This document shows positions 3,589 to 12,953 of a stretch of 12,953 nucleotides of DNA, piece after piece. The notes under the pieces are model-generated. The model made no database searches. It was not told the origin of the DNA and saw nothing but the letters and a program-made list of their open reading frames with translations. The position numbers were made by a program, and so were the translations under genes. Every line of letters begins with the position of its first letter. The first letter of the stretch is position 1. This stretch comes from Deltaproteobacteria bacterium RIFOXYA12_FULL_61_11. Its GTDB lineage: Bacteria; Bdellovibrionota_F; JAHFAK01; YA12-FULL-61-11. The stretch is from contig MGSU01000334.1 of NCBI GenBank assembly GCA_001799195.1, forward strand, positions 12,021 through 24,973, read 5' to 3'.

Positions 3589-4218
3589 GTGGCCAGGTAT
3601 CTCAGTGGCGTTTGCAGGTTCTGCCGTCGAGAGAGGGTGAAGCTCTTCCTCAAAGGGGAACGTTGCTATTCAGAGAAATGCGTAATGGAGCGACGGGCCT
3701 ATCCTCCCGGACAACACGGCCAGCGCAGGAGCAAGCTCTCCGACTATGCCGTGCAGCTCCGTGAGAAACAGAAGGCTCGCCGGATCTACGGCGTGTTGGA
3801 AAAACAGTTCCGGCACATCGTCAGGGATGCCGAACAGGCAAAGGGCACCACTGGTGACAACCTCATCAAGCTCTTGGAATGCAGGCTGGACAACCTCGTC
3901 TACAAGATGGGCTTCGCCTCCTCTCGAACCCAAGCCCGCCATCTGGTGAGGCACCGGCACTTCCTGGTGAACGGACGGATCGTTAGCATTCCCTCCTATT
4001 CGGTTCGCTTGAACGAAATGATCGAACCCAAGGAACGGAGCAAGAAGGTCGAGGTCATCAAGAACGCGCTCGACAGCATCGAAAAACGTGGATTACCCTC
4101 CTGGATCGAACTCGACAAGAGCAAGATGCAGGGACGGTTGGTGGGGTACCCCAACAGGGATGAACTCCCCAACCTGCCGGTGAACGAACGATCGATCGTC
4201 GAGTTGTATTCCAAGTAA
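3589..4218 (+). CDS. rpsD: 30S ribosomal protein uS4, zinc-binding form
   Basis: uS4 is a primary 16S rRNA-binding assembly protein; in E. coli it also represses the alpha operon. It has 209 residues. The start [15 protein letters not shown] contains C9 and C12, and C26 and C31 follow, giving the four-cysteine zinc site of the C+ form that many proteobacteria have lost. The S4 RNA-binding domain is visible in the middle ([30 protein letters not shown]). The end ([17 protein letters not shown]) is typical. It starts with GTG at 3589 behind AGGAGG (3578-3583), spacing five bases. Confidence 0.98.
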
Positions 4219-4240
4219 AGAGTATCGAAGGGGCAAGGCG

Positions 4241-5275
4241 ATGGTGGAGCCATATCACAAGACATGGACTGACTTGATCACACCGAAGGGTATCGTGGTC
4301 GATCGGACAACTCATTCGAATACCTATGGGAAATTCGAGATAAAACCCCTTGAGAAGGGCTTCGGGATCACTCTCGGGAATGCCCTGCGGCGGGTGCTGC
4401 TCGGTTCTCTCTACGGCACCTCGGTCTATGCCGTCAAGATCGACGGCGTGTTGCATGAATTCGGTACGGTCAAGGGTGTAGTCGAAGACGTCTCGGACAT
4501 CATCCTCAATCTCAAAGAGGTAAAATTCAGACTCCCCGAAGGGGAATCCGCGGTCGCCCACCTCAGGATTAAAGGCGGTAAGATCGCGACCGCTTCGGAC
4601 ATCACCTCCGATGTACCGCTCGAGGTCATGGAACCGAACCACCCCATCTGTACCTGTACCGAGGACGCCAAACTCGACATGACCCTCTACATCAAGATGG
4701 GGCGTGGCTACGTTCCGGCGGATCAGAATAAAGATGCGAGTATGGGCATCGAGGTGATTCCCATCGACTCCATTTTCTCACCTATCGTCAAGGTGAATTT
4801 CTCGGTGAGCGATGTCCGGGTCGGTCAACGTACCGACTACGATAAGCTCGTCATCGAAGTTGGCACCGATGGCAGTCTGCCTCCAGAGGACGCCATTGGC
4901 TATGCAGCCAAGATCCTCAAAGAACAGGTCTCGGTCTTCATCAACTTCAACGACACCATCGAGATAGAAGAAGAGAGAGCAGAAACCCCCGAAGTGTATC
5001 GGGACGAAGTCCACGATGCTCTCAACCGTAAGGTCGATACACTCGAACTCTCGGTGCGTTCGGCCAACTGCCTGCAGAACGCCAATATCACCTATATTGG
5101 CGAACTCGTGCAAAAATCAGAGGCCGAGATGCTCAAGACCAAAAACTTCGGTCGCAAATCTTTGAACGAAATCAAAGAATTGCTGGCAGAGATGGGTCTC
5201 AGCCTGGGTATGAAAGCCGAGTGGACCCCTCCCGAAGGGGGGGAAGTCGAAGAAGAGAGCGAGGAATTGTTGTGA
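4241..5275 (+). CDS. rpoA: DNA-directed RNA polymerase subunit alpha
   Basis: The alpha dimer nucleates RNA polymerase assembly; its C-terminal domain contacts UP-element DNA and activators. It has 344 residues, slightly longer than E. coli (329). The N-terminal domain contains [19 protein letters not shown] (about 37-54) and [16 protein letters not shown]. The C-terminal domain (about 267-325) has [19 protein letters not shown], where R273 and N276 match E. coli R265 and N268, followed by LLKT-like [18 protein letters not shown]. An acidic tail (EEESEELL) follows. ATG 4241 is preceded by AAGGGG at 4228-4233. It lies between rpsD and rplQ as in most bacteria. Confidence 0.98.
5227..5243 (+). 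other. GC-only hairpin in the 3' end of rpoA
   Basis: The run of mostly C at 5227-5233 can pair with seven G at 5237-5243 around a GAA loop (one U-G wobble). This gives a compact, very stable RNA hairpin of the C(GNA)G type about 30 bases before the rpoA stop. No T-tract follows, so it is not an intrinsic terminator. It encodes part of the PPEGG tail and may simply reflect codon use. Confidence 0.4.
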
Positions 5276-5316
5276 GCGACCGCGCCGCGGCCGCCCTCTA
5301 CCCATCGAGGTGAGTT

Positions 5317-5847
5317 ATGCGTCACAGGAATATTAACCAACGCTTCGGCAGGGACACCTCCCACCGCAAAGCCTTGTTCTCCAACATGGCAATGGCTCTG
5401 CTGCGCCACGAGAAGATCGAGACGACCGTGCCCAAGGCCAAAGAATTGCGCCGCAAGATCGATCGCCTCATCACCCTCGGAAAGCAGGACACCCTGCATG
5501 CTCGCCGCTTGGTCTATCGCATCATCAAGGACCGCGATCTGATCAAGAAGCTCTTCAGCGACTTGGCCGTACGTTTCAAGGACCGTCCGGGTGGTTATAC
5601 AAGAATAGTGCGGACCGGCATCCGCGCCGGTGACGCCGCTCCCCTCGGCATCATCGAATTGGTCGGTCCCCTGACCGAGCGCAAACAGCGCAAGCACCGG
5701 GAAGAAGTCGCCGACAAACCTACCGACGTGGTGAGCAAGGAACAGGCCTTCCAGGCGCAACCTGCCGAAACCGTACCTACCGAGACCGTACCTGCCGAGA
5801 CCTCCGAACAACCGGCCGGTGAGAAGACCGAAACCCCCGCCGGTTGA
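5317..5847 (+). CDS. rplQ: 50S ribosomal protein bL17 with extended C-terminal tail
   Basis: bL17 is a large-subunit protein near the exit tunnel. The core is conventional: [51 protein letters not shown], then [25 protein letters not shown], ending near residue 115. The total is 176 residues against 127 in E. coli. The extra 60 or so residues are charged, then rich in Pro, Glu, Thr and Ala, with a threefold PAETV-like repeat encoded by 15-base units. Such a tail is likely disordered; its role is unknown. GAGGTGA at 5307-5313 precedes ATG 5317. It is the last gene of the ribosomal block. Confidence 0.97.
5761..5805 (+). repeat. Three tandem 15-base repeats inside the rplQ tail
   Basis: Three adjacent units (5761-5775, 5776-5790, 5791-5805) follow the pattern CCTRCCGARACCKYM and encode [10 protein letters not shown] and PAETS. 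The units differ at only a few bases, which suggests in-frame expansion of the disordered bL17 tail. Confidence 0.8.
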
Positions 5848-7540: not shown

Positions 7541-10500
7541 ATGACCGTCCAACCTCCTCCGACAAGCCCGCGCTACGATCATTTCCGGCTCCTCGGGCAC
7601 GGCGGCAATGCCGAGCTCTTCAAGGCCTGGGACCGGTACGAACGCCGGCTCGTGGTTTACAAACGCTACGCTCCGGAACACGGAGACCTCGGTATCAGGG
7701 AAGGTGAACTGCTGGCCCGCTACCGGCATCCCGGCATCGCGGCCTGGTTGGACCACGGCTGGGAGCCCGGTCTCGAACGCTCGTTCCTCGTCATGGAATA
7801 CCTCGACGGCGTTGATCTGGTCCAGGCCTGTGGGGATCGCAGCCTCGTGGAACGTCTCGAGCTGTTCCGCCAACTTTGCCAGATTCTCCAATTCCTCCAC
7901 TTCCATGGGCTCGTCCATCGCGACATCAAGAGCAGCAACATCCTCGTGGTCGGAGACAGTGTACGCCTCATCGATTTCGGAGCTGCCAACGAAGTGGGCT
8001 ACGACACCTGTTTTCAGGGGACCTTGCACTACACCGCTCCCGAGCTGTTCTTCAAACTCGGGGTCGATCGCAGCGCGGACCTCTACAGTCTCGGGGTATT
8101 GTTGTACCGGGTCTTCTGCGGAAGCTATCCCCGCCATGCTACGGACCTGCAGGGTTGGCGAAACCTGCACGAGAGCCGTCCCGACGTTCGCATCCACCCG
8201 GACATGCCCCTCTCCGACGACTTCAAGGAGATGCTCGGCGCCCTGCTGGGGTACTCCCCGGAAGATCGCGGCAGCATCGACGAACTCCTGCGACTCCTCG
8301 AGGTCGAGCTGTCCCTACACGAAGACGCCTGTCCACACCCCACGGCCGAGAACGATCCACTCGTGCTCGCCGACCTGCTCGAAGGTTGGGTCGACACCGC
8401 CCTCCAAGCGGCGCTGGCTTGGTTGCGCACCCGACTCGGCGAAACCCCGGAAGGCCTGTATCAACTCCATTTCACCAACGCCGACCCACACGCCGCTGAC
8501 CGCGGAGGTCAGCAACTCGCCCAAGTCTTGCGTCGCATGCTCCCCCTGGTGGTGCTACCTGCTTCCATTCCCCTGGACGAGCTGTACGGCGTGCTGAGGG
8601 ATCATCCTCCTTATTGTTTTCTGCTCGCGCCTCATTCCGGTACAACACATCTCTTCAAGGGGTTATATGCCCCGAATAATGCTCTTTCTCTCGAAGGCCG
8701 ACCCTTGATCCTCTGCACGCAAGGCGGCCCTCTCGCATCTTCGACAATCGCCCCTTCGCCGGACCGGGTCTACGAGGTCGTCCTGCCGCGGCTGGGCACC
8801 GAAACCTTTCCCGGCCTGATCGAACGTTTCTTCCAACCACCGGTGACTCACTATCTCCAGCATCGCCTACGGGAGCAGGTGGTCCATGACCACGCTCACT
8901 TTCAGAGCTTTCTCATGCAAGAGCTTCGGCAAGGGCACCTGTTCCTGACCTCGAGAGGTTGGAGGCTGGCTCCGGACATCATCGTGCGCGAGGATCCTGC
9001 AGAACCTACCGTGCTCGAACCTCCCAGATCCGATCGGCCTGCTCCCAAGAAAGCGACCCCAGCTACCGTGGCTCGGTTGCTGCGCGATACCGAGGCCCTC
9101 CATCACGTTTTGGAACGCCACTGGGAACTCGGGGAATACCCAAGCATCGAGCACCTCCTCGCCGCTCTCGAACCCCAGACAACCCACCCGCAACAACGCC
9201 TGCTGGCCGAGCTGTATCGCTCCCGGCTCGAGGCTCACGCTGGCAATATCGGCGGGGCCTTGCTCCGTCTGCGCGGACTGGAAGGCATCCTATCCCAGCA
9301 ACCACCACTCCCCCCTCTCCTGAACGCGGATCTCCGCTTACACGAAGCCACCCTCCTGACCAAGAGCGGCGAGTTCCTGCGATCGAACGAGGTATTGGAA
9401 CGCCTGGTCGCCGATACCGACCTCTCGAGAATCCCTCTGGTCCTGACTTCGACCTTGACCAAAATGGCCATCAACCGCAGTAAGCTCGGCGACTACCGAG
9501 GCGCTCTCGGTCTGTACCACGACCTCCTCGAGGCCAAGCGAGCCGGGAACGACGATACCGGTCTGGCCGCCTTGCAGCTCAATATCGGCGTCTGTCATCA
9601 TCTCATGCAGGACCACGACCAAGCTCTTGCCCATTACCGCAAGGCCGCACGCCAGGCCCTGGTCAACAACGACGGCAAGCGTTACACCCTAGCCGTGTTC
9701 AACGAGGCAGATCTCCTGCTCGATCGCAAGGATCACCCCCGGGCTCGAGAGGCCTTCCTCAAGGCCGCAAAACATGCCCGGAGAATTGACTACTCGGCCG
9801 TGCTGCAACGAGCCGAACTGAACCTGCTCTACCTCGACGCGATGCTCGGCGACCAGACCGGGAAAGCCCTGCAGACCCTGGGAGACCTGTCCGAAACCTA
9901 TGCGAAGGCGGACAATGCAGAGAACCAGATCCTGGCGAACGTCTTGATCGGCCGCCTCCATCTGGCCAAGGGCGACCACCCCAAGGCCAGAGAGCACCTC
10001 GAGAGCGCCCTGGAACTGGCCCTGCGGATCAAACACCAGCGCATGATCAAAGAGCTCGACCATCTGCTCTACGAACTCGGTCCCGCCTCTTCCTCCTGCT
10101 CCCAGACCGCCCCTACCTCTCCCCTGCATGAGGACGTGTATTCCCACCTGGAGCGCTTGTTGCGCCAAACCTCCAGCCCTGCCGAACTCTTCCGGCAGTC
10201 CGGCTCAGAGCTTCTCCGCTGGCTCGGGCAACGTCACGACCTCGTCGGCGCGGTACTCGTGCTCAAACTGGAGCAGGGAGGCTACGAGCTGCTCACCTTG
10301 GACGGCAAAGGTACTCCCGTGCGCGAGTTCAGCGAGAACCTCGTTCCGGAGGAGCTGCTCGAAACCCCATCCGGCACCGTGTTGGCGAGTACCTCCATTC
10401 CCTTTGCCCGCCTCTCGGTCAGTCCGCTCCCCGTCTCGAACCGCGGGCCTCGTTTCGCCCTCTGGCTCGACGAGAAAGGAACCTTCGGCCTGCTGGCCCC

Positions 10501-11728
10501 CATCCTCCCTGGCAGTACCGAACAATGGGCAGGTCTGGAGCGGTACCTCGAGCTGCTCAGGACCCTGCTGTCCCGCACCGCGCCCGTCCTACCACCCCCC
10601 GGGCAGGACAAGCTGCTCGGGACCGTCAGCCGGAGAGCAATCCTCCCGCAAGAACTGGCTCGCAGTGTGACCTTTTCCCTGGTCGATCGCATCCTCGAAC
10701 GTCAGCCCCTGCAACGGACCTCTCTCTCGCCCTTGGGGTACCTCATCGGCACCTCCAAGGCCCTTGCCGACCTCTACGACCAGGTGGAAGCCGTGGCCCG
10801 CACGCCGGTCTCGGTGCTTATCGAGGGGGAGAGCGGAGTCGGCAAAGAGGTCCTCGTCCGCACCTTGCACGAACTCGGGGAACATCCTGAACGTCCCCTG
10901 GTCGTCCAGAACTGCGGTGCTATCCCCCTCGAGTTGGCAGAGAGCGTTTTCTTCGGGCACGAGAAGGGTGCCTTCACCGGAGCCCATGAACGTCGGATCG
11001 GAGTCATCCAACAGAGTCAGGGCGGCACACTCTTCCTCGACGAGATCGGCGACCTCCCCTCGAGCATCCAAGTCGCGCTGCTCCGGGTGTTGCAGGAGCG
11101 CAAGATCCGGCCGGTCGGAGCCACCAGGGAGTTGGAGGTTTCCTTCCGTTTGGTCGCGGCCACGAACAAACCCCTGCACGAAGAGGTCGCTCAGGGCCGG
11201 TTCCGCGAGGACCTCTACTATCGCCTCGACGTGGTCCATCTCCACGTCCCGCCGTTGCGCGAGCGCAAGGAGGACCTCCCGCTCCTGATGGACTACTTCC
11301 TCGGCATAGAGAGCCAACAACTCGGCAAGCGGCGGTTGGAACTCGACCGCAGCGCCTACCAGGCGCTCCTGGCGCATGACTGGCCTGGCAATATACGCGA
11401 GCTGCGCAACGTGGTGATGCGTCTCCTGGTCTTCCACTCCGGCACTGTCGGCAAGAAGGAGGTCCTGACCTGTCTCACCCGCTCCCGCGTAGCCAAGCCA
11501 TTCACCGAGACCCACGAGCTCTCCTCTGCCACGCCGCCTTTCAGCGGTGAACTGCCCAAAATCCAGGACTATCTCGACCGCCACGAACGGGCGTTCCTGG
11601 TGCAGGCTTTGCGATACCACGACGGCAATGTCAAACAATGCGCCGAACAGATCGGGCTGGGCAGGGTCACGCTCTACAACAGGATCAAGGCGCTCGGCAT
11701 CACTCGGGAAGCATACTCGGGTACCTAG
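7541..11728 (+). CDS. Ser/Thr kinase - TPR - sigma54 enhancer-binding protein fusion
   Basis: A 1395-residue single-chain regulator. Residues 15-255: kinase with Gly-loop GHGGNA (19-24), K41, alpha-C E54, HRDIKSSN (126-133), DFG (145-147), APE (166-168), DLYSLG (180-185) and R243, so all catalytic residues are present. Residues about 280-485: similar in layout to a STAND/AAA-16 ATPase but without a P-loop. Residues about 510-845: some seven TPR-like helical repeats. Residues about 865-1015: a GAF-like alpha/beta region (tentative). Residues 1066-1295: sigma54 AAA+ with Walker A GESGVGKE (1096-1103), GAFTGA (1143-1148), Walker B LFLDE (1164-1168), AATN (1206-1209), FREDLYYRL (1221-1229) and WPGNIRELRN (1281-1290). 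Residues 1338-1388: Fis-type helix-turn-helix. It is thus predicted to bind upstream DNA and open sigma54 promoters under control of the kinase and sensor parts. There is no receiver domain. ATG 7541 is preceded by a weak AAGAGAG; the kinase Gly-loop right after it supports this start. Confidence 0.95.
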   Translation: MTVQPPPTSPRYDHFRLLGHGGNAELFKAWDRYERRLVVYKRYAPEHGDLGIREGELLARYRHPGIAAWLDHGWEPGLERSFLVMEYLDGVDLVQACGDRSLVERLELFRQLCQILQFLHFHGLVHRDIKSSNILVVGDSVRLIDFGAANEVGYDTCFQGTLHYTAPELFFKLGVDRSADLYSLGVLLYRVFCGSYPRHATDLQGWRNLHESRPDVRIHPDMPLSDDFKEMLGALLGYSPEDRGSIDELLRLLEVELSLHEDACPHPTAENDPLVLADLLEGWVDTALQAALAWLRTRLGETPEGLYQLHFTNADPHAADRGGQQLAQVLRRMLPLVVLPASIPLDELYGVLRDHPPYCFLLAPHSGTTHLFKGLYAPNNALSLEGRPLILCTQGGPLASSTIAPSPDRVYEVVLPRLGTETFPGLIERFFQPPVTHYLQHRLREQVVHDHAHFQSFLMQELRQGHLFLTSRGWRLAPDIIVREDPAEPTVLEPPRSDRPAPKKATPATVARLLRDTEALHHVLERHWELGEYPSIEHLLAALEPQTTHPQQRLLAELYRSRLEAHAGNIGGALLRLRGLEGILSQQPPLPPLLNADLRLHEATLLTKSGEFLRSNEVLERLVADTDLSRIPLVLTSTLTKMAINRSKLGDYRGALGLYHDLLEAKRAGNDDTGLAALQLNIGVCHHLMQDHDQALAHYRKAARQALVNNDGKRYTLAVFNEADLLLDRKDHPRAREAFLKAAKHARRIDYSAVLQRAELNLLYLDAMLGDQTGKALQTLGDLSETYAKADNAENQILANVLIGRLHLAKGDHPKAREHLESALELALRIKHQRMIKELDHLLYELGPASSSCSQTAPTSPLHEDVYSHLERLLRQTSSPAELFRQSGSELLRWLGQRHDLVGAVLVLKLEQGGYELLTLDGKGTPVREFSENLVPEELLETPSGTVLASTSIPFARLSVSPLPVSNRGPRFALWLDEKGTFGLLAPILPGSTEQWAGLERYLELLRTLLSRTAPVLPPPGQDKLLGTVSRRAILPQELARSVTFSLVDRILERQPLQRTSLSPLGYLIGTSKALADLYDQVEAVARTPVSVLIEGESGVGKEVLVRTLHELGEHPERPLVVQNCGAIPLELAESVFFGHEKGAFTGAHERRIGVIQQSQGGTLFLDEIGDLPSSIQVALLRVLQERKIRPVGATRELEVSFRLVAATNKPLHEEVAQGRFREDLYYRLDVVHLHVPPLRERKEDLPLLMDYFLGIESQQLGKRRLELDRSAYQALLAHDWPGNIRELRNVVMRLLVFHSGTVGKKEVLTCLTRSRVAKPFTETHELSSATPPFSGELPKIQDYLDRHERAFLVQALRYHDGNVKQCAEQIGLGRVTLYNRIKALGITREAYSGT

Positions 11729-11729
11729 C

Positions 11730-12953
11730 TCACCCACCGCACCGCAAGGCCAGGGCCACCCGCACAACCTCGGCGCACGAAGCGCACTCGAGAGTCCCGT
11801 GGGCCCGGTCGCAACACAGGCCACCGCGGACTTCACAAGCTGCAACATCATTGAGATTACAGTGATGTTCCTTCAGCCAGATGCCGCGCGAACAGGTCAT
11901 GCAGTCCTCGCTGTCGCGGGCATACTCACAACATCCTCCGGCTCTCAGCAGGCAGGCCGGCCGGTCTCCGTAGTGGCACTGGTGAAAACGGAACACCTCG
12001 GGAGGATCGCAGGGATGGTCGACGGGTAACTCCACCACTCGGGGTTCTGCCGGTGGCTGCAGAGGCGGATCCGGCGTGACCGGCTCCACCACGGGGGTCT
12101 CCGGTTCCACCGTTGGGTTGGTCGGCTGCTCGGGTTCGGCCGGAGCGCTGCTAGGCAGGGCCGGACCGGTCAAGGTCAGGGCTCGTTCCAACGCGGGGTC
12201 GGCCAAGGGAGAGAGCATGCACTCGGGTGAGCTTGCGGCGAGGTGGCGCCGATCGATAGGCTGCTCCGAACCGTTCTCGACCGCGATTGTACCGTAGAGC
12301 GGACCCTTGCAGACCATAGGTTCGGCGGAGAAGAGCAACCCACGCAACCTGACGCGGTAGGTTTCGAAGGTCGAGAGGTCGAGCGGAAGCTTTGCGGTCA
12401 GCGCTCCTGCGAGGGCTTTCTTGGCCAATACCACATTAGCGGTGAGTTGATGATACCGCTGCCCCTCGTGTACGAACCAACGGCCGCGTTGGTTGGAGGT
12501 GCTGAGCAGGAGGACCGCGCCTCCATTCCCGTCGGTATGCAGGAGGGCCCGTCGCGCCTGGAGTCGCTGAAGACCGCTACTTAGTTCCAAGGTGAGGGTT
12601 TCGGCCAAGGCCAAGCTGACGAAGTCATCGCCAAGACCTCGGCCCGTACTCTCCACGACCACGGACGTACTCGACCTCCGCACCCGGTGTTCAAGGGTGC
12701 CATCGACGCTCCTGCCGAGCAATCCCACGGCGCAAGCCTTCAAGACCTCTCTTTGCACCGTGAGGGGACCGTCACTCGGGACCGCCGGAATACCCTCGCT
12801 GGTCGTGATGGTCCGACATGAGGCCTGGACGAGATTGTGCGTGACCGAGGGATTAGTCTTGGAGAGCACCAGCGGGAGCAATTCATCGGCATCGATGGGC
12901 AAGAAGTCGTTGTCTTCGAGTGGCAGGGCATCGTTGTCCTCGAGGGGCCAGCC
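11730..12953 (-). CDS. Proline-linker, cysteine-rich protein of unknown function, 5' end missing
   Basis: The frame is open to the window edge; the first possible start inside, a TTG at 12902, has no support, so the gene probably begins outside. About 407 residues are visible. In order: an acidic repeat (PLEDNDAL, PLEDNDFL, PIDADELL), about 220 residues of unrecognised mixed sequence with a few cysteines, a proline/glutamate-rich linker (about 12015-12155), and a C-terminal domain with 14 cysteines in 91 residues made of two copies of C-x7-C-x6-CC-x8-C-x2-C. An even number of cysteines and the extended linker suggest a disulfide-bonded, exported protein, but no signal peptide is visible because the N-terminus is missing. 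It converges on the giant regulator with one base between stops. Long uninterrupted frame and patterned composition argue that it is real. The function is unknown. Confidence 0.8.
   Translation of the reverse strand, partial: GWPLEDNDALPLEDNDFLPIDADELLPLVLSKTNPSVTHNLVQASCRTITTSEGIPAVPSDGPLTVQREVLKACAVGLLGRSVDGTLEHRVRRSSTSVVVESTGRGLGDDFVSLALAETLTLELSSGLQRLQARRALLHTDGNGGAVLLLSTSNQRGRWFVHEGQRYHQLTANVVLAKKALAGALTAKLPLDLSTFETYRVRLRGLLFSAEPMVCKGPLYGTIAVENGSEQPIDRRHLAASSPECMLSPLADPALERALTLTGPALPSSAPAEPEQPTNPTVEPETPVVEPVTPDPPLQPPAEPRVVELPVDHPCDPPEVFRFHQCHYGDRPACLLRAGGCCEYARDSEDCMTCSRGIWLKEHHCNLNDVAACEVRGGLCCDRAHGTLECASCAEVVRVALALRCGG
11775..11978 (-). repeat. Tandem duplicated six-cysteine module (protein-level repeat)
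   Basis: Two 29-residue modules, at 11978-11892 and 11861-11775, have identical cysteine spacing C-x7-C-x6-C-C-x8-C-x2-C and repeat with a 39-residue period. Short matching pieces beside the cysteines (AGGCCEYAR against GGLCCDRAH) show common origin. Lone cysteines before (about 12010) and after (about 11740), at distances of 10 and 11 residues, continue the pattern. Confidence 0.9.
12876..12947 (-). repeat. Tandem 24-base acidic repeat at the window edge
   Basis: Three consecutive 8-residue units read PLEDNDAL, PLEDNDFL and PIDADELL on the minus strand. The first two differ at one residue and several bases; the third is diverged. More copies may lie outside the window. Confidence 0.65.

Follow-up and report, generated by a model that had tools for sequence, protein, structure and literature searches.

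In bacterial enhancer-binding proteins, control usually lies with receiver, PAS, GAF or FHA domains, and studies of Hanks kinases and sigma54 activators usually treat the two as separate systems that are linked in trans. A gene of Deltaproteobacteria bacterium RIFOXYA12_FULL_61_11 carries both on one chain, and the question is whether kinase, sensor and output work as one regulatory unit. The gene occupies positions 7541 to 11728 of the forward strand in a window of 12,953 nucleotides, which is the whole stretch of DNA that was analysed, and its product is referred to here as P0001. The domains of P0001 described below all lie on this strand, and their positions are given in the numbering of the window.

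Translation of the gene gives 1395 uninterrupted residues with the terminal stop as the sole stop, and GC content by codon position shows an even coding signature across the entire frame. A sequence-only reading had placed a Ser/Thr kinase at one end of this frame and a complete sigma54 activator at the other, with TPR-like repeats between them. Pfam detects all of these parts above curated cut-offs. The Hanks-type kinase domain (PF00069, residues 13-250, positions 7577 to 8290) scores 114.7 bits against a cut-off of 31.7 (E 6.5e-33) and has the catalytic motifs K41, HRDIKSSN at 126-133 (HRD 126-128), DFG at 145-147, and APE at 166-168; PknB is its best PDB match and nearest solved kinase. The TPR sensor region (residues about 500-850, positions 9038 to 10090) follows the STAND-like module described below; it contains TPR_12 at 637-704 and further repeats up to about residue 830, TPR_12, TPR_1, and TPR_2 all exceed their cut-offs, and the region is the same in the paralogues. 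The sigma54 AAA+ domain and its lid (residues 1068-1307, positions 10742 to 11461) consist of Sigma54_activat at 1068-1234 (E 2.7e-63) and AAA_lid_14 at 1240-1307. Walker A (GESGVGKE, 1096), GAFTGA (1143), and Walker B (GTLFLDEIGD, 1162) are present, as are FREDLYYR (1221) and PPLRERKED (1237); the arginine-finger and sensor II motifs are intact, and FleQ, ZraR, and NtrC are the nearest solved activators. A C-terminal Fis-type HTH (HTH_8, residues 1349-1384, positions 11585 to 11692) completes the chain (E 9e-10, 38.5 bits against a cut-off of 22). No cyclase or FHA domain was found in P0001, and Pfam detected no HisKA or HATPase output in it. The parts named by the sequence-only reading thus stand, but its list was incomplete, as a putative STAND-derived region and a probable GAF domain had been missed.

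The first of these regions follows the kinase, where residues 262-500 contain no Pfam domain. When a profile built from P0001 and two paralogues in the same genome was compared with the STAND modules of other kinase-STAND proteins, residues 385-482 matched with a score of 30.7, which rose to 39.1 when the target profile was widened. None of 100 column shuffles exceeded 17.6, none of 60 shuffles with the wider profile exceeded 20.4, and off-target controls stayed at background; the probability given by hhalign itself is low (13%). The best-supported stretch, 385-482, corresponds to the part from the sensor strand to the winged helix. The pattern GxxxxGK[ST] is absent from residues 262-500 and in P0001 is confined to the AAA+ domain. 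At the P-loop position, the aligned loops read HFTNADPHAADRGGQ in P0001, GLEGSDLHQRQRQ in the paralogue on contig C129, and LVGETALQREAL in that on contig C2, versus GESGIGKSRL in the relative P0005, and the loops of both paralogues also lack the P-loop Lys. We read residues 262 to about 482 (positions 8324 to 8986) as a putative decayed STAND-type module of the PknK/MalT kind that has lost its P-loop. The analogy with PknK-like regulators drawn in the sequence-only reading appears apt, since by profile comparison this middle region resembles the module that follows the kinase in PknK-like proteins.

Pfam gives no GAF match in P0001. Comparison of residues 862-1015 (positions 10124 to 10585) with GAF profiles beats all 100 shuffles with a low hhalign probability (22%), the predicted topology is GAF-like, and GAF domains take the first five places among the VIA-align matches, with modest Z scores (4.0-5.5). 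These results point to a probable degenerate GAF domain. AlphaFold models of both middle regions are of low confidence (mean pLDDT 54); Foldseek searches with these models returned no significant match, and VIA-align with the STAND-like region gave weak matches to ribosomal proteins alone. Paralogue alignments further reveal an S-[VI]-T-x-x-L motif (SVTFSLVDRILERQP) in the linker ahead of the AAA+ domain (positions 10646 to 10738), which is kept in all three paralogues although they are otherwise diverged. As a suggestion only, phosphosites or a coupling helix might be sought at this motif.

The genome (4.64 Mb) is assembled in 342 contigs with N runs, which is the kind of assembly in which two genes might be joined by error. 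The continuous frame and even coding signature of P0001 argue against such a join, as do the two diverged paralogues, which have the same domain order at 32-33% identity. The C129 paralogue aligns with residues 2-1082 in one frame (approximately 33% identity) before the end of its contig cuts it. The C2 paralogue is 46% identical to P0001 in the kinase and 60% in the AAA+ domain, and its kinase and TPR-GAF-AAA+-Fis parts are split solely by a frame-shifting run of 23 N bases. One assembly error cannot account for all three proteins; a chance or chimeric join is very unlikely and is excluded for practical purposes. The same genome encodes rpoN (PF04552 on contig C315, E 2.1e-64) and has approximately 30 Sigma54_activat matches.

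To survey the architecture, 192 diverse genomes were searched with a kinase query and 386 with a fused query (approximately 390 were sampled), and long frames were then fetched. Single-frame proteins with both a kinase and a sigma54 AAA+ domain were found at least 22 more times, in 19 genomes and 15 families, all of other phyla; two candidates per genome were scored with the fused query, so that this count is a lower bound. In the fused proteins that were scanned, Pfam confirmed Pkinase, TPR, GAF, Sigma54_activat, and HTH_8, with AAA_16 after the kinase in two. These proteins show that the linkage has been repeatedly made or kept. The rarity implied by the sequence-only reading did not hold up: the fusion with a sigma54 output is widespread rather than a one-off, and public genomes contain many sequences of this kind. 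When the 200 residues past the kinase were searched with a simple pattern, the STAND P-loop was found in 15 of the 22 other fusions and not in the remaining seven, so P0001 is not alone in lacking it. The one other genome of the same phylum that was searched contained ordinary activators and no fusion, and no relative was found on viral contigs.

Several related arrangements were also encountered. The best two-piece match of a plasmid search, on a Rhizobium jaguaris plasmid (L026, 3281-6549), was rejected as a fusion, as it consists of two adjacent genes: a GAF-sigma54 activator gene followed directly by a Ser/Thr kinase gene. A ClpB/ClpV-like AAA+ gene precedes this pair, which possibly belongs to a type VI secretion cluster. 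The fused protein L069 (genome G294) has GTATGV in place of GAFTGA in its AAA+ domain and may not act on sigma54; a simple pattern search found that several other fused proteins also lack GAFTGA. Two sigma54 activators of 1427-1455 residues (L119 and L120, genomes G333 and G469) possess a long N-terminal part with no recognisable kinase.

A tree of 74 AAA+ domains places P0001 and the C2 paralogue as sisters (100/98). This pair groups with a fused protein of another phylum (97/82, on a long branch) and not with activators of its own genome. Forcing all fused AAA+ domains into one clade was rejected (AU p 4.1e-6), as was forcing the pair together with own-genome activators, three divergent ones being omitted (p 3.8e-11). 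Since a single clade of fused sigma54 domains is rejected, the fusion probably arose several times, and the likely history is either several fusions or fusions plus later splits and transfers. The P0001 fusion is old enough for its paralogues to have drifted to their present identity.

The reading that we prefer, with a probability of roughly 55%, is that P0001 is a cytoplasmic single-chain, one-component integrator, in which the kinase and the TPR/GAF sensors gate the sigma54 AAA+ domain in cis. A Ser/Thr kinase on a STAND-derived scaffold, the TPR sensor, and the GAF domain would form its input, and the sigma54 ATPase with the Fis DNA-binding domain its output. At rest, the N-terminal half most likely restrains the AAA+ domain; autoinhibitory contacts are known to keep STAND proteins with TPR sensors in an inactive state (PMC6468293). 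The trigger would be a partner or ligand that binds the TPR/GAF part, combined with autophosphorylation of the kinase, either in cis or between neighbouring chains, after which the AAA+ domain would hexamerise at the enhancer and remodel RNA polymerase-sigma54. As the STAND part of P0001 is without a P-loop, it has probably lost ATP-driven switching, and oligomerisation would be left to the sigma54 AAA+ ring. We infer kinase activity, cis regulation, N-terminal repression, and loss of the STAND ATPase, and likewise the signal and the targets; operation of kinase, sensor, and output as one regulatory unit is also a deduction from the layout. A broader proposal is more tentative, and we consider it possible but doubtful: P0001 may represent a widespread, undescribed class of one-component regulators, assembled several times independently, with a eukaryotic-like kinase in direct control of the sigma54 AAA+ ring of the same chain and a STAND motor that decays once that ring takes over oligomerisation.

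The chain could instead do two jobs, the kinase acting on separate proteins and the TPR/GAF ligands controlling the sigma54 part independently, with a common sensor or location as the sole reason for their fusion. A precedent is PknK, whose substrates include separate regulators such as PrrA and MtrA (PMC9045387). Genes in which the two functions are apart fit as well: the genome of P0001 has a separate kinase-FGE gene near an FHA-sigma54 activator gene, and genome G329 has a kinase-STAND-TPR gene immediately ahead of a separate GAF-sigma54 gene. However, single-chain fusions recur in many families and one genome has three paralogues, which suggests that the linkage matters, and we regard two independent jobs as the less likely reading. 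Regulation in cis is preferred because the linkage survives duplication, the same-genome paralogues keeping kinase and activator together, and because it recurs. An inactive kinase serving as an allosteric module that binds ATP or a partner appears improbable. The kinase of P0001 is divergent, at 115 bits in Pfam, whereas three of four other fusions that were scanned reach 161-186, and the kinase match of its counterpart L110, one of the at least 22 further fusions, is weak and barely recognisable; yet Lys41, HRD, DFG, and APE are all present in P0001, and K, HRD, and APE are retained in both the C129 and C2 paralogues.

Upstream of P0001 lie genes for SecY, Adk, methionine aminopeptidase, S13, S4, RpoA, and L17, with a small predicted lipoprotein and then proline dehydrogenase between L17 and P0001. 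A further predicted lipoprotein lies downstream on the opposite strand. No sigma54 promoter above chance was found within the window or its contig, which points to there being no local target. Predicted lipoproteins occur near two of the three fusions, namely at 11733-12953 of the window (reverse strand, reaching 13169) and at 994-2289 of L011 (reverse strand). They have LPxDN-type repeats in common (PLEDNDFLPIDADELLPL and FLPIDNTNFLPIDNVNELPLEDD), and each adjoins an N run. The remainder of the two proteins is weakly similar, with nine of 500 shuffles being equally good, and no further copy was found in the same genome.

The chassis is known with other outputs. In Mycobacterium tuberculosis, PknK is classed among the STAND kinases that regulate transcription (PMC9045387, PMC4381067). 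Its N-terminal Hanks kinase precedes a STAND-type module, to which the putative STAND-derived region of P0001, without a P-loop, would correspond; as far as described, PknK has no sigma54 AAA+ or Fis output. The cyanobacterial HstK-type kinases (kinase-GAF-HisKA) share the kinase - ATPase module - GAF chassis predicted for P0001 and a signalling output fused on one chain (PMC2176072); unlike in P0001, this output is a histidine kinase, and annotated relatives are named 'trifunctional serine/threonine-protein kinase/ATP-binding protein/sensor histidine kinase'. In intact fused relatives, the STAND region is hit by the model of the TOMM system kinase/cyclase fusion, TIGR03903 (E 1e-91 to 5e-57, below its curated cut-off); that fusion differs from P0001 in having a nucleotide cyclase output. 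The chassis has also been described in kinase-TPR-GGDEF and kinase-MalT-like proteins (PMC1262709). The genome of P0001 itself encodes a cyclase-AAA_16-TPR protein of 1144 residues on a related chassis, with a cyclase replacing the kinase (L146, contig C241, 1835-5266, reverse strand). A 1050-residue protein of this genome (L145, contig C18, 210-3359) combines MshEN, HD, receiver-like, and TPR domains with a C-terminal kinase.

Enhancer-binding proteins of the NtrC, NorR, and FleQ types have the same AAA+ domain with GAFTGA and the same Fis HTH, but in P0001 the chain that bears them begins with a kinase-STAND-TPR-GAF module. FHA-sigma54 activators with separate Ser/Thr kinases also couple a Hanks kinase to a sigma54 output, but do so through two genes acting in trans. 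A natural contrast of this kind exists in the same genome, where a kinase-FGE-sulfatase protein (L141, contig C165, 493-2574) is followed approximately 1 kb downstream on the forward strand by an FHA-sigma54 activator (3648-5387). The chassis is thus known with histidine-kinase and cyclase outputs, and its sigma54 version is apparently unstudied: as the sequence-only reading had supposed, no description was found in the open-licence papers searched, which does not prove that none exists. The recurrent single-chain form may offer a direct route to how Ser/Thr phosphorylation controls the sigma54 AAA+ machine, making a hunt for partners unnecessary, and indicates that the kinase-STAND-TPR-GAF chassis accepts a transcription output besides its histidine-kinase and cyclase outputs.
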